In this document: positions 33,954 through 40,529 of the stretch, one piece after another
Position numbering within the stretch: the first letter of the stretch is position 1
Layout of the letters: each line of letters begins with the position of its first letter
From: Erysipelothrix sp.
GTDB taxonomy: Bacteria; Bacillota_I; Bacilli_A; Erysipelotrichales; Erysipelotrichaceae
Direction: 5' to 3'
NCBI GenBank assembly: GCA_012841625.1
Contig: DUUI01000053.1
Coordinates: 1-64,000 of the forward strand
Length of the DNA stretch: 64,000 nt
The notes under the pieces: generated by a model
The model's input: only the letters and a program-made list of their open reading frames with translations
What the model was told of the DNA's origin: nothing
Database searches by the model: none
Made by a program: the position numbers and the translations under genes

Positions 33954-34619
33954 ATGGTAAAGATTTTAGTTATAGAAGATGAAGAAAGTATCAGAAGACT
34001 CATAAGATATGATTTAAGAGTTTCTGGTTATGAAGTCGACAGTGAAGAAGACGGTCTAAAGGGATTAGACAAAGCCTTAAATATTAAATATGATGTAATA
34101 GTTATTGATTGGATGCTTCCTGGGCTAGATGGTCTCTCCATTGTAAAAGAACTTCGAAACAATCGGGTTGACAGTATTATTATTATGCTTACCGCAAAGG
34201 ATCAAGAAACAGATATACTTGAAAGTTTCGAAGCAGGTGTTGATGATTACATTACTAAACCATTTTCACCACGGCAGTTACAGGCTCGGATTAAAGCCCA
34301 TTTAAAACGTGTGATAGTAACAACAACAGTCGAGGAAACGATTGGAAATTTAAGTCTGAATCGAAATCTACATGAAGTAAAAGTCAAAGACGAAGTTGTA
34401 AATCTTACCAAGAAAGAATATGATTTATTATTATACTTAGTGGATAACAAAAACCATGTCTTATCAAGAGAACAAATTTTATCTGAAATTTGGAACTTTG
34501 ATTATGATGGTGATACACGAATTGTTGATGTTCATATATTTAAGCTTAGAAGTAAACTAGAACAAGCGACACTGATCATTGAAGCAATGCGTGGGGTCGG
34601 GTATGTTCTCAAAGTTTAA
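33954..34619 (+). CDS. phoP: OmpR-family response regulator, PhoP/PhoB type
   Basis: A 221-residue regulator. The receiver domain has acidic pocket Glu8-Asp9-Glu10, phosphoacceptor Asp52 (VIDWMLPG), conserved Thr/Lys (MLTAKD, YITKPF). The C-terminal OmpR winged helix has LTKKEYDLLLYLV and TRIVDVHIFKLRSKLE. It starts one base after the phoH stop and overlaps phoR. Its position directly before pstSCAB-phoU and the TTAACA repeats upstream of pstS support the PhoP role in phosphate starvation. Confidence 0.88.
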   Translation: MVKILVIEDEESIRRLIRYDLRVSGYEVDSEEDGLKGLDKALNIKYDVIVIDWMLPGLDGLSIVKELRNNRVDSIIIMLTAKDQETDILESFEAGVDDYITKPFSPRQLQARIKAHLKRVIVTTTVEETIGNLSLNRNLHEVKVKDEVVNLTKKEYDLLLYLVDNKNHVLSREQILSEIWNFDYDGDTRIVDVHIFKLRSKLEQATLIIEAMRGVGYVLKV

Positions 34620-35796
34620 TCATATCAAAGTAGTATTATGGTTAATACTACTTTTACTATGCATAAGTCCATTTCAGTTTGAATTAAAAATAGAATTAAC
34701 AATAGGCTTATTAGTAATCATTGCGATAATCCTTTTACATTTCATCTTATTACCTAAAACTCAAGTTGATTTAAAAAACCAGTTAATTCATGCTGAAATG
34801 AAAAATATTAATTTAGCCCGTCAATTGGATGAGTTTTTAATGACAATACCAATCCCTTTGGTTGTAATTGATAATAATCTTAATGTATTGGTCAGTAATT
34901 TAGCCTATAAACAGACATTTTTAAATCATCGACAAGATCTAAAAAGACTTGAATATCAACTAAAAGCAACAATCAATCAAGCTGTCCGAAGCACTGGCTC
35001 AACACGTGTCACTATTTTCTTTGATAGTCGTGAATATTTAATGGTCACCAGTCATTTAAATTACAATAATCAATTATCAACATTATTAGTGTTTAGTGAT
35101 ATTACATCATTTATGGATGCTCAAAAAGCACAGAAACGATTTATTGCTGATGCATCACACGAGCTTAAAACTCCTATTACTTCAATAAAGGGAATCAGCG
35201 AATTATTAGTGACTCATGATATGGATCATGTAACACAAAATGAATTTTTGTCCCAAATTAGTAAGGAATCAAATCGACTTCAACTAATTGTTCATGATTT
35301 ATTGGAATTATCTAGATTATCATCTAATCGTCTTATTTTAAATCACACTTCATTTAACTTTTCTGATTTAGTTAAAGAGGTTTATCATGGTTTAAGAACT
35401 TTATTATTGTCAAAAAATTTAAATTTTATTTATGATTTTTCAAATCAACCCGTATTTTTGGATTATGAAAGAATGCATCAAGTTTTAAATAATCTATTGA
35501 ATAATGCCATTAATTATTCTGATGAAGGTAAAATCGAACTCATCGCTTATCACACCGATTCTGAATTTGTAATAACAATAAGTGACCAAGGCATTGGTAT
35601 CGATGAAAAGCATCATCCATATTTATTTGATCGCTTTTATCGCATTGATGAAGCACGTAATCGACAAGTTGGAGGCAGTGGCTTAGGCCTTAGTATTGTC
35701 AAAGAAATTATTGAAGCACATGGGGGAGAAATTAGAGTGCAAAATAATGATGGAGGTGGAACGCAATTTGTTATTTCACTTCCATTAAAGAATTAA
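34603..35796 (+). CDS. phoR: Sensor histidine kinase PhoR
   Basis: A 397-residue kinase. It has two membrane helices (about 8-50) joined by only a few residues, a PAS domain (IPIPLVVIDNNLNVLVSN, about 85-180), the H-box FIADASHELKTPITSIKG, N-box NNLLNNAINYSDEG, G1 DQGIGID and G2 GGSGLGLSIVKEI. The lack of an extracellular sensor suggests phosphate status is read through PstSCAB-PhoU. I chose ATG 34603; an in-frame TTG at 34579 has no better site. It overlaps phoP by 17 bases. Confidence 0.88.
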   Translation: MFSKFNHIKVVLWLILLLLCISPFQFELKIELTIGLLVIIAIILLHFILLPKTQVDLKNQLIHAEMKNINLARQLDEFLMTIPIPLVVIDNNLNVLVSNLAYKQTFLNHRQDLKRLEYQLKATINQAVRSTGSTRVTIFFDSREYLMVTSHLNYNNQLSTLLVFSDITSFMDAQKAQKRFIADASHELKTPITSIKGISELLVTHDMDHVTQNEFLSQISKESNRLQLIVHDLLELSRLSSNRLILNHTSFNFSDLVKEVYHGLRTLLLSKNLNFIYDFSNQPVFLDYERMHQVLNNLLNNAINYSDEGKIELIAYHTDSEFVITISDQGIGIDEKHHPYLFDRFYRIDEARNRQVGGSGLGLSIVKEIIEAHGGEIRVQNNDGGGTQFVISLPLKN

Positions 35797-35889: not shown

Positions 35890-36843
35890 ATGAAAAAATT
35901 ATTTGGATTATTATTAATTCTTGTATTATTAGTCGGTTGTTCAACAATAACTGAATCTGACACACCAGAAGGGGAAACCCCTGAGCAACAACCAACAACT
36001 GAATCTGTGGTTATTGATGTTTATACACGCGACTCATCATCTGGAACTCGTGAAGCATTTGAAGATGGCGTCGGGCTTGATGAAGGTGCACTAACAGTTG
36101 AAGCTGTTGAAACATCAGGAAATGGTGATATGGCTCAAAAAGTTGGAGCTGATGATAAAGCAATCGGTTATGTTTCATTAACAACAGACTTTGCAGCAAA
36201 TAACATAAGATCAGTTCACTTCAACGGTGTTGAAGCAACAATCGAAAATGTACTAGACCAATCTTATACATTATCTCGTCCATTCTCATATACAACAAGA
36301 GCACAGGACGACTATGCTGATGAAGCAACAAGAACGGCTGTGGCTGCATTCTTAGATTTTGTAAATAATTCTGAAGAAGGATTATTAGCTGTTGAGGCAC
36401 AAGGCGGAATTGTTGACACAAGTAATGCTAAACCTTGGGCAGAACTAGCTGAAGCACATGGTGAAATTGATACATCAGTAACAATTAGAACTGCTGGATC
36501 AACTTCTGTTGAAAAAACTCTCCAAGCTGCTTTAGAAGCATTCCAAGCTGAAACAGGTGTACAATTTTCAATGAACCATACAGGTTCTGGTGATGGTTGG
36601 AAACGTGTTCTTGGCGATGAAAAAGACACTGCCAATGCTGCTGATCTAGGCTTTGCATCTAGACCATTCAAAGATGATGGAACAGAAGATGTAAGTACAG
36701 CAATGGAATCTGGCTATTATTCATTAGACGCAGTTGTTGTCGTGGTGTCATTAGACAATGATGTTGCTCCTGAATCCTTAACAGATGCACAAGTTTTATC
36801 AATCTTTGATGGAACAGTTAAAAACTGGGAAGATATTCAGTAA
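35890..36843 (+). CDS. pstS: Phosphate-binding lipoprotein PstS, circularly permuted
   Basis: A 317-residue lipoprotein: signal peptide with lipobox (LLVGC, Cys17), acidic Pro-rich spacer (about 20-40), then two halves in swapped order. Residues about 42-175 carry features normally found in the C-terminal half of PstS (YTRDSSSGTREAF, AIGYVSL, YTLSRPFSY, AAFLDFVNNSEEG). Residues about 197-317 carry those of the N-terminal half (IRTAGSTSVEKTL, NHTGSGDGWKRV, DLGFASRPFKDD, VVVVSLDND, then KNWEDIQ at the very end). All phosphate-loop motifs remain. It follows a PHO-box promoter and AGGAAGGA. Function as the phosphate receptor for PstCAB is supported by context. Confidence 0.9.
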   Translation: MKKLFGLLLILVLLVGCSTITESDTPEGETPEQQPTTESVVIDVYTRDSSSGTREAFEDGVGLDEGALTVEAVETSGNGDMAQKVGADDKAIGYVSLTTDFAANNIRSVHFNGVEATIENVLDQSYTLSRPFSYTTRAQDDYADEATRTAVAAFLDFVNNSEEGLLAVEAQGGIVDTSNAKPWAELAEAHGEIDTSVTIRTAGSTSVEKTLQAALEAFQAETGVQFSMNHTGSGDGWKRVLGDEKDTANAADLGFASRPFKDDGTEDVSTAMESGYYSLDAVVVVVSLDNDVAPESLTDAQVLSIFDGTVKNWEDIQ

Positions 36844-36866: not shown

Positions 36867-36897
36867 ACCTAAGTCACAATTAAGTGGCTTAGGTTTT
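36867..36897 (+). terminator. Hairpin between pstS and pstC (attenuator or stability element)
   Basis: ACCTAAGTCAC (36867-36877) pairs with GTGGCTTAGGT (36884-36894) with one wobble, loop AATTAA, followed by only four Ts. A weak terminator or 3'-protecting hairpin here would raise pstS over pstCAB. Confidence 0.6.
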
Positions 36898-36918: not shown

Positions 36919-37860
36919 ATGAATCAAATCGAATTAGTTAAATCTGAAAGCTATAAAAAAAGAAAATACTTCATAGATGCTCTGTTCAAGCTAATTTTCC
37001 GTTTAGCAGGACTGATCTCTGCGATATTTATTATACTTATCTTTTTGTTTATACTTGAAAAAGGTATTCGGGTCTTCTTACCTGGATATGAATACGGTCA
37101 ACAGAACTTTTTTGAGTTCTTAACAGGACTACAATGGAGACAAGATATCGGTTTATATGGTGTTGGATTTATTATAGTAAATACCTTAGTCACATCATTG
37201 GGGGCAATCTTAATCTCTTTTCCATTATCGGTCTTATCCGCATTATTTATTGTTAAAATAGCACCCAAGAAAATATCTGAAGTAATGGCAACTGTTGTTG
37301 AATTACTAGCTTCCATTCCTTCTGTTGTTTATGGTGTCTTTGCCAGTGGTATAATTGTTCAAATGGTACAAACTTTGGCTGATACACTGGGCGTTCGGTC
37401 ATGGGGCGGCAATAGTATGTTAGCAGTTATTTTACTATTAGCAATTATGATTTACCCAACAATAACAATGCTATCTATAGCTGCAATTAGAGCTGTTCCA
37501 AAAGAACTTGAACATGGTTCATTAGCTTTAGGTGCCTCGCCAACTCAAACAAACTTTAAAGTTGTTTTAACTTCAGCAAAATCTGGTATTTTTGCTGGAT
37601 TAATTTTAGGACTGGGTCGTGCATTTGGTGAAGCCACAGCTGTTTCAATGGTGGCTGGTAATAAAATGTTTGGGCCTACAACAAATTTATTTGACATCAC
37701 TAGAACATTAACATCTACCATGCTGGCTGGTTTAAAGGAAACAACTGGCTTAGACTATGACATTCGTTTTAGTGTCGGGATTGTGTTAATGGTGATTATT
37801 TTAGTGACTAACTATGTGATTAATCGTGTTAAGGCTAGAATAGGACAGTCTGTATCATGA
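36919..37860 (+). CDS. pstC: Phosphate ABC transporter permease PstC
   Basis: A 313-residue permease with about six helices. Family features include VELLASIPSVVYGVFASG, RAVPKELEHGSLALGASPTQTN (the EAA coupling loop) and GLGRAFGEATAVSMVAGN. It forms the phosphate channel with PstA. Ribosome site AAGGGAGAAA. It overlaps pstA by 4 bases (ATGA). Confidence 0.94.
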   Translation: MNQIELVKSESYKKRKYFIDALFKLIFRLAGLISAIFIILIFLFILEKGIRVFLPGYEYGQQNFFEFLTGLQWRQDIGLYGVGFIIVNTLVTSLGAILISFPLSVLSALFIVKIAPKKISEVMATVVELLASIPSVVYGVFASGIIVQMVQTLADTLGVRSWGGNSMLAVILLLAIMIYPTITMLSIAAIRAVPKELEHGSLALGASPTQTNFKVVLTSAKSGIFAGLILGLGRAFGEATAVSMVAGNKMFGPTTNLFDITRTLTSTMLAGLKETTGLDYDIRFSVGIVLMVIILVTNYVINRVKARIGQSVS

Positions 37861-39119
37861 CAAATAAGAAATTAATCGATTTTAGTAAAAATCGTCAAAA
37901 ACGAAAAAGAAAAGACTTCATCTCTAATCTACTCACATACTTAGCTGCAGGCCTAGCAACTGCAGTCTTAGTTTCAATCTTTATATTCGTCTTACAAAGA
38001 GGATCAAAAGTACTCTCTTGGCAAATGATTCGAGATGATTATTGGTCACAAAACTTTCTAGCAGCGATTGATGAAACAGACGCTCAAGCTGGAAATTTTG
38101 AAAGGCCAGCTGATTTAGATAGTTCAATTTACTATTCTGAAAGATTCGGAATAGGGGTCACAGATAGAGTCAATCAACAAAAACAAAGTTTAGTTGAGAT
38201 TCACTATGTTCATCCTGACTCACCAATCAATCAAGCGATTATAACAACCCCGGGAGAATATTTTGAGCAGTCAATTGGAGACATGCTTGAAAAGAATATC
38301 ACTCGAATGTCGATTGTTGATCAACAAGGCGCGACCATGAATATAGGGACTCAAGTACAAGATGATGCCAGTTCATTCATCATTAAACTTGATTCAGCAA
38401 CACAGATCAATACAATCTTCTACCAAACAGCTGGTGGGGGTATCTGGGGCTCTCTAAGAGCGACATTAATTTTGATAGGTATTTCCTTACTAATTGCTTT
38501 ACCTATCGGTATCGCGGCTGCTGTGTACTTACACGAGTATGCCAAGCCAAATAAGGCCACTGCCTTTATGCGCTCATCCATTGAAATGCTCTCAGGTGTC
38601 CCTAGTATTATCTTTGGTTTAATGGGGGTTGCCGTTCTATTCCCAATTACAACTGTTTTTGGCGCTAATTCATTGAGTATTTTATTGGGGGGAATTACCA
38701 TGGCAGTTATGTTATTACCAATTATTATTCGACAAACCGAAGAATCATTAATTGTTGTTCCAAATGGACTAAGAAATGCATCATTATCATTAGGAGCAAC
38801 TGAAACTCAGACAATCTTTAAAGTTGTTCTTCCAACAGCCTTACCCGGGATCATCTCAGCAGTCTTATTGGCTGTGTCTCGAGTTATTGGAGAATCTGCT
38901 GCACTTATTTATACAATGGGTACCGCAATCTCGGATAATCCTAAGTTGTTGCAAGGCGCTACGTCATTAGCCGTCCAGATTTGGTCAATAATGAGTGGTG
39001 AACAACCTAACTTTGAACTAGCTAGTGCTATTTCCATTATTATCTTAGTAGTGGTCTTAGGCTTAAATCTAACTGTTAAAGTTATAACTGGACGATTAAA
39101 TAGAAAGTGGAAAGTATAA
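37857..39119 (+). CDS. pstA: Phosphate ABC transporter permease PstA with long extracytoplasmic insert
   Basis: A 420-residue permease, clearly longer than the usual 280-300. After the first helix (about 27-47) there is an extra hydrophilic region of about 140 residues (52-192), including [15 protein letters not shown] and [15 protein letters not shown]. The remaining helices and the EAA loop ([17 protein letters not shown]) are normal, as are [19 protein letters not shown] and [12 protein letters not shown]. The insert lies outside the membrane, where PstS docks. Translation is coupled to pstC. Confidence 0.92.
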
Positions 39120-39120
39120 A

Positions 39121-39873
39121 ATGAATGTATTTGAAATCAAAGACTTGAATCTTTATTATGGAGATAATCATGCACTTAAAGACATTAATCTAAGCATTAT
39201 GCGAAACAAGGTTACGGCACTCATTGGTCCTTCAGGCTGTGGTAAATCGACCTTTTTAAGATGCTTAAATCGAATGAATGATTTAATAGATAATGTTACA
39301 ATAGATGGAGAAGTTAATTTTAACAATCAGAATATCTATGCTCATGACATGGATGTTGTAGAATTAAGAACTCAAGTTGGAATGGTGTTTCAAAATCCTA
39401 ACCCATTTCCAATGTCGATCTATGATAATGTTGCTTATGGATTACGCTGTCAAGGAATCAAAGATAAGAAAACTCTAGATGAAGTTGTTGAAACATCACT
39501 TAAAAAAGCAGCTATCTGGGATGAAGTTCATGATCGTTTAAATTCAAACGCCTTAAAATTATCTGGTGGGCAACAACAACGTTTATGTATCGCACGAGCT
39601 ATTGCGCTTCAGCCTGATGTCATTTTAATGGATGAACCAACTTCAGCGCTTGACCCCATCGCAACCGCCAAAATTGAGGAGTTAATTAGTGAACTAAAAG
39701 AAGACTACTCAATCGTTATTGTAACTCACTCAATGCAACAAGCTGCACGTATTTCTGATTTCACTTCCTTCTTCTTACTTGGAGATTTAATTGAAACTGG
39801 CGATACAAGCGAATTATTCCATACACCTAAGGACAAACGTACCGAAGACTATATCACAGGTCGATTCGGTTAG
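39121..39873 (+). CDS. pstB: Phosphate ABC transporter ATPase PstB
   Basis: A 250-residue ATPase: Walker [10 protein letters not shown] (about 36-44), NRMNDLI and the PstB-typical [19 protein letters not shown], signature [16 protein letters not shown], Walker [13 protein letters not shown], and the H-loop TH in [11 protein letters not shown]. It energises phosphate import and, with PhoU, signals to PhoR. It starts one base after the pstA stop. Confidence 0.97.
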
Positions 39874-39884
39874 AAGGAGAGATT

Positions 39885-40529
39885 ATGCGATTAGAAGATG
39901 AACTGATTCAATTTGAATCACAAATTTTATTTATGTTAAAGAAAGTGCGCCAAATGTTTCAACTAGCTCAAGAAGCTTTAAGAACACATGACAAGGAAAA
40001 AGCACTCTCTGTTATTGAAATGGATGATTATATTAACCATTTAGACGAAGACATTAACCATCAAGCAACAGAAATGCTTAGTTTATTACAACCGGTTGCT
40101 AAAGATTTAAGAAGCATTATTGCTGGAATAAAAATCTCTACAGATATTGAGCGAATTGGGGATTATGCCAAAAATGTAGGACGTTATGTTATTAAGAATC
40201 AATCACAAAATAGCCAGGAATTAATCGACTTAACTTTAAATGTTGTTGATCATGTAATGCACCAATTAGATGATATGTATGATGCACTAGAAAATAATGA
40301 TGCTGATGCAGCATACAGAATCCCTGATGGAGATGATAAAATCGATGATGCCTTTCTTAAAACATTGGTTTTTATTGAAGAAAAGATCCATAATAATGCT
40401 CAAGAATTTAATTATCCAGTACGCTTAGTTACAATGTTAAGATCACTTGAAAGAGCTGGTGATCATGTTAAAAATATTTGTGAATCACTAATTTATAAAG
40501 TTAAAGGTCAGCACATTGACTTTGGATGA
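39885..40529 (+). CDS. phoU: Phosphate signalling protein PhoU
   Basis: A 214-residue, all-helical protein with two three-helix PhoU repeats, containing the metal-binding E/D motifs (DDYINHLDEDI; DGDDKIDDAFLKTL) and ISTDIERIGDYAKNVGR and LRSLERAGDHVKNICE. It restrains PhoR when phosphate is plentiful. Ribosome site AGAAGGAGAG. It closes the pst operon at a bidirectional terminator. Confidence 0.95.
   Translation: MRLEDELIQFESQILFMLKKVRQMFQLAQEALRTHDKEKALSVIEMDDYINHLDEDINHQATEMLSLLQPVAKDLRSIIAGIKISTDIERIGDYAKNVGRYVIKNQSQNSQELIDLTLNVVDHVMHQLDDMYDALENNDADAAYRIPDGDDKIDDAFLKTLVFIEEKIHNNAQEFNYPVRLVTMLRSLERAGDHVKNICESLIYKVKGQHIDFG

Follow-up and report, generated by a model that had tools for sequence, protein, structure and literature searches.

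A circularly permuted PstS-type receptor gene in the pst operon of an Erysipelothrix genome

The window analysed here, a stretch of 64,000 nucleotides from the genome of an Erysipelothrix sp., contains a complete pst operon in which a pstS gene lies directly before pstC, pstA, pstB and phoU (Table 1), the setting expected of a gene for a PstS-type receptor. PstS is a textbook receptor, and the protein encoded here departs from the standard order of segments in being circularly permuted. A gene for a Na/Pi symporter follows phoU on the opposite strand, and the stable hairpin predicted between pstS and pstC may set the ratio of receptor to permease. The PstA protein matches TIGR00974 only from residue 190, and its extra segment of ~120-140 residues (about residues 50-190), situated before the conserved membrane domain, found no match in searches of Pfam or of the PDB sequences.

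Table 1. Features of the permuted pstS gene and its neighbours, in window coordinates
Feature	Coordinates	Strand	Evidence
PhoB/PnpR-like response regulator	33954..34619	+	Below equivalog cut-offs
PnpS/PhoR-like histidine kinase	34579..35796 (start approximate)	+	Below equivalog cut-offs
Permuted PstS lipoprotein gene, 317 aa	35890..36843 (stop included)	+	Profile, structure-model and fold-match evidence
Lipoprotein signal peptide, residues 1-17, the last being the lipobox Cys	35890..35940	+	Sequence
Residues 42-175, usual second half of PstS	36013..36414	+	TIGR02136 positions 164-291, E 6e-19
Lobe II phosphate-contact loop RDSSSGT, R47 to T53	36028..36048	+	Conserved in permuted and standard rows; role of the Arg, PMC12421899
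Linker, residues 176-196, old C-terminus to old N-terminus	36415..36477	+	Alignment
Residues 197-317, usual first half of PstS	36478..36840	+	TIGR02136 positions 40-155, E 1.5e-13; secondary structure
11-bp RNA hairpin between pstS and pstC	36867..36894	+	Fold energy z = -3.9
pstC, permease	36919..37860	+	TIGR02138 above cut-off
pstA, permease; additional extracytoplasmic segment ahead of residue 190	37857..39119	+	TIGR00974 above cut-off; comparison with relatives
pstB, ATPase	39121..39873	+	TIGR00972 above cut-off
phoU	39885..40529	+	TIGR02135 above cut-off

The pstS product begins with a lipoprotein leader whose lipobox, LVGC, places the cysteine at position 17, and this residue is invariant in 15 relatives. 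The leader is followed by the segments usually found in the second half of PstS, comprising the remaining part of lobe II (with R47 and the SGT loop), the hinge return and the closing helices of lobe I, and only then by those of the first half, with the lobe I loops AGSTSV (202-207), TGSG (231-234) and FASR (255-258), a hinge strand (274-287) and an NWEDIQ end that belongs to lobe II. The native protein aligns to TIGR02136 in two stretches, with residues 39-172 matching profile positions 161-291 and positions 40-155 matched by the later half; when the two halves delimited in the preliminary description of this locus are aligned separately, they fall on the profile as listed in Table 1. Restoration of the standard order in silico turns the two stretches (116.2 bits) into a single one spanning positions 1-291 (132.2 bits). 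The PF12849 profile likewise matches both halves in swapped order, in two stretches totalling 81 bits, which is above its gathering cut-off of 27 bits and places the protein in the PBP_like_2 superfamily; it is the only PF12849 protein in the genome. The TIGR02136 score stays below the cut-off for the curated name (206.6 bits) in the native and the rearranged form alike, so the strict family name is not claimed here, and judged by this score the protein appears to be divergent as well as permuted. The preliminary description, which was made from the sequence alone, had reported the swapped halves, and the motifs and residue ranges that it quoted are correct; the profile matches, the rearrangement control, the relatives and PDB entry 4H1X all agree with its reading of the order. 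The protein is predicted to work like PstS but differs from it in the order of its segments.

The order recurs in more than 100 independent assemblies. Full-length matches that are collinear, and hence permuted, occur in about 30 of 58 genomes of the same family, and all 80 named loci that were retained after scanning species genomes, some of these complete chromosomes, are permuted; they come from Dielma, Longicatena, Amedibacillus, Merdibacter, Erysipelothrix, Helcococcus massiliensis, Izimaplasma, Anaeroplasma, Acholeplasmataceae and others. Within the class to which Helcococcus belongs, roughly a fifth of 245 sampled genomes have a permuted match. The earlier implication that the gene is unique must consequently be given up, the permuted form being common and the 4H1X structure having been public since 2012. 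We also note a permuted PstS match on a plasmid record of Monoglobus pectinilyticus (NZ_OY725727.1:4513-5277), annotated only as 'substrate-binding domain-containing protein', and others on unannotated gut contigs filed as phages (H10-H14), the plasmid-record and phage-filed matches having 28-31 % identity. The form is easily overlooked, since it scores below the threshold for the curated PstS name and the plasmid copy carries a generic annotation. A literature search, with most subscription journals outside its reach, found no paper describing the permutation, and this widespread form of PstS seems to have gone undescribed despite the availability of a structure.

AlphaFold, applied to 15 natural permuted relatives, predicts a PstS-like two-lobe fold with a mean pLDDT of 90. 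When the model was compared with the PDB using Foldseek, the top match was 4H1X (SP_2084, the pneumococcal PstS2; a structural-genomics entry released in 2012), with an E-value (6.6e-22) sixteen orders of magnitude ahead of the rest and a TMt of 0.85 over 289 columns; in the sequence alignment, too, 4H1X is collinear, over residues 39-316 of the window protein. The phosphate-contact residues of both lobes are kept: R47, S51, G52, S204, S206, S233 and S257 are identical in all 93 permuted rows of the alignment and T53 in 92 of them. By sequence alignment R47 is the counterpart of Arg125 of 4Q8R, and the Arg at this position has a phosphate-binding role (PMC12421899). The model is a confident one that matches 4H1X over its length, and the protein is likely to bind phosphate.

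The breakpoint itself lies elsewhere than had been proposed. In one published PstS the N-terminal domain (lobe I) comprises residues 24-111 and 279-324, the C-terminal domain (lobe II) residues 112-278, and the hinge residues 102-117 (PMC12421899). The hinge strands of the window protein, taken from the AlphaFold model and assigned by homology, are a long one at 274-287 and a returning one at 129-136, and in the sequence the two ends of the fold are well separated from them, residue 42 by about 87 residues and residue 317 by about 30. The chain has been opened within lobe II, in a loop that leads from the NWxxI helix to the strand bearing R47, a position at which standard PstS proteins have a GGxDxxI loop. 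Since the termini fall inside this loop, their placement at the domain hinge in the preliminary description is unsupported; both the published borders and the hinge strands of the model put the break within lobe II. Lobe I would become contiguous and lobe II the split lobe, and the lipid anchor has probably shifted from lobe I to lobe II, although this relocation is read from the domain borders of other PstS structures and not from transporter-bound coordinates of the protein itself.

The circular permutation of the window gene is genuine, and the gene itself is intact, conserved and set within an operon. Neither chance nor an assembly rearrangement can account for the order, and a decaying gene is scarcely credible; the window genome is admittedly a draft of 85 contigs, but the same order recurs in independent assemblies, in complete chromosomes and in the crystal structure 4H1X. 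The open frame, the lipobox, the ligand loops and the operon are likewise all intact, in agreement with the earlier judgement that this is not a pseudogene. We think it very unlikely, if somewhat less so, that the permuted protein has ceased to supply phosphate transport, having taken another ligand or become the sensor input of the adjacent two-component system. The proximity of that system, the extra outer segment of PstA and the TIGR02136 score below the name cut-off could all be read in this way. Against them stand the retention of every phosphate-contact position checked, the location of the gene directly before pstC-pstA-pstB-phoU with no other PF12849 protein in the genome, and the uptake of phosphate by pneumococcal Pst2, the receptor of which has the same topology (PMC4913102).

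The gene thus very probably encodes a working PstS-type phosphate receptor with a circularly permuted chain. The lipid-anchored N-terminus leads into the usual second half of PstS, a linker of about 20 residues bridges the old C-terminus to the old N-terminus, and the chain ends at the opened lobe II loop, between the NWxxI helix and the strand of the phosphate-binding Arg. The two-lobe clamp would be kept, with AGSTS, TGSG and ASR of lobe I and R47/SGT of lobe II closing on phosphate, which would then be passed on to PstC-PstA-PstB. The consequence would be a lobe I made of one continuous segment and a membrane tether moved from lobe I to lobe II. Such a gene plausibly arose by tandem duplication of pstS followed by trimming at both ends, and this probably happened independently in the window lineage and in that of pneumococcal PstS2, where PstA is without the extra outer segment.

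The permuted PstS genes form two clades, A, which includes the window gene and represents a lineage of Erysipelotrichaceae and Mycoplasmatota-type bacteria with the extra outer segment in PstA, and B, which is of the 4H1X type. Both are broken in the same loop, and the linkers between the old ends differ: in clade A they have ~25 residues and contain W..L and DNS, in clade B ~15 residues and GYI and Y. The PstA segment divides the operons cleanly. Every clade A operon sampled has it, as do five standard-order operons from Clostridia-type genomes, and it is absent from clade B and most standard operons; in numbers, it occurs in 80 permuted operons, many of them close relatives, and in 5 standard ones, and is missing from 23 permuted and 22 standard operons. 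The gene order was checked in 20 loci. The segment was considered as an obligatory partner of the permutation and rejected, given the five standard-order operons that have it and the 23 permuted clade B operons that do not. One genome (G279; L334, L335) has two pst operons, one with a permuted PstS and a long PstA and the other with a standard PstS and a short PstA.

In a tree of PstC, PstA and PstB from 60 operons (741 columns), clade A (support 100) and clade B (support 98) are set apart with standard operons between them, and the tree calls for one change in the PstA segment and three in the permutation. A tree in which all permuted operons are forced into one clade is worse by 104 log-likelihood units (AU p = 5.5e-5). 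The PstS tree built for these 60 operons repeats the split of long and short operons, at a support of 99.8, and also rejects a single permuted clade (p = 0.028), whereas in a set of 133 PstS rows a single clade costs 40 units and is not rejected at the 5 % level (p-AU = 0.083). The operons of genomes G146 and G149 are compatible with membership of clade A (p = 0.206; support 95 in the PstS tree). We regard two independent permutations at the same loop as probable, and no more than that because PstS alone is not decisive; the window PstS and 4H1X would then probably be the products of separate events. A single permutation, followed either by a swap of pstS into the second operon type or by reversion in some lineages, is in our opinion possible but rather unlikely. 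It would explain the opening of both clades at one and the same loop, it is tolerated by the larger PstS set, and the gene of G276 described below demonstrates that a return toward standard order can occur. It is at odds, however, with the strong rejection by the permease and ATPase sequences, with the weaker one by the 60-operon PstS tree and with the dissimilar old-end linkers, and since the PstS tree repeats the split between long and short operons, no exchange of pstS between the operon types is visible.

Further rearrangements have occurred within clade A, several lineages of which contain fused tandem receptors, with two modules in G128, G226, G196, G331 and G238 and three in G348. The fused loci (L146, L147, L148, L149, L150, L151 and L107) are single frames of 593 to 910 aa with two or three permuted PstS modules each. 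Modules are 79-95 % identical within one protein and 36-67 % between proteins, so they represent later duplications of a module that was already permuted, apparently made separately in several lineages. Tandem fusions were also considered as ancestral intermediates of the first permutation and were rejected, since the modules are closest within each protein and the tree clusters them likewise. Two side observations may be recorded here. At L110 (strain zrk7; also G642:C1:8422-10228), on a complete chromosome, a tandem-fused PstS is split into frames of 123 and 497 aa, either in reality or through a sequencing error, and at L152/L328 (G149:C134) two adjacent but separate permuted pstS genes precede one pstC-pstA-pstB set.

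The pstS gene of G276 (L159:1846-2772, G276:C3), a genome that shares its genus with the fused G226, is re-permuted at a second, different breakpoint. Its frame of 315 residues begins with a lipoprotein leader and continues with the last third of the C half, then the N half and then the first part of the C half, an order that is near to standard. The gene is intact and is followed directly by pstC and pstA, no fragments being left over, and its product aligns to an inner stretch of the fused proteins with the ligand positions kept. The model of this protein (pLDDT 82) has standard-order PstS structures as its best matches (TMt 0.71-0.76), and 4H1X is outside the first 50. Such a gene is the expected remainder of a duplication that was then trimmed at new points, and it lends support by analogy to the duplicate-then-trim scheme, as distinct from support for the window gene's own first permutation. 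The origin suggested in the preliminary description, a tandem duplication with loss of the outer halves, is accordingly made plausible by the fused tandem copies and by G276, but an intermediate of the window lineage's own first permutation was not found among the sampled loci, and a search of the window for remnant repeats of a recent duplication gave none of note. The fuller account, in which PstS underwent at least two independent permutations in Bacillota and Mycoplasmatota-type bacteria, each opening the same lobe II loop, and repeated tandem fusion of the permuted module then allowed re-permutation to near-standard order, seems to us fairly probable.

Since the permuted receptor is common and has a solved representative, the window gene taken by itself is only moderately interesting; the probable repeated origin, the fused copies and the re-permutation in G276 add to this. 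The permuted topology was already to be seen in 4H1X, and what is new is the presence of two permuted clades split by standard operons in the operon trees. If the fuller account is true, the multiple permutations, the tandem fusions and the G276 gene would show, in nature, stages of permutation by duplication and trimming in a transport receptor whose membrane tether was moved between lobes. Standard, permuted, fused double or triple and re-permuted loci make the duplicate-then-trim model traceable in one gene family, and since permuted and standard receptors are paired with homologous permeases, the effect of tethering the other lobe is directly testable.

Among known systems the closest is 4H1X, with which the window PstS shares the order of halves and the breakpoint in the same lobe II loop, even though the two are only about 25 % identical in the fold alignment and 4H1X falls in clade B, where the sampled operons encode a PstA lacking the extra segment and the old-end linker is shorter. 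Deletions in Streptococcus pneumoniae showed that either Pst1 or Pst2 alone suffices for phosphate uptake at 1 mM (PMC4913102), which indicates that the clade B system is functional; that paper makes no mention of a permutation in PstS2. Standard receptors such as Clostridium perfringens PBP-1 (4Q8R/4GD5) and Escherichia coli PstS have the same segments, phosphate-contact residues and operon role but the halves in the other order, and 4GD5 and 4Q8R align to the window model only piecewise. The MglB-2 protein of Treponema pallidum (Tp0684; PMC4990184) is also a naturally permuted, tethered substrate-binding protein that still binds its ligand, although it is a Type I sugar receptor of another fold class, with another breakpoint and an added fourth hinge crossing, and the resemblance to the window PstS is one of analogy only.
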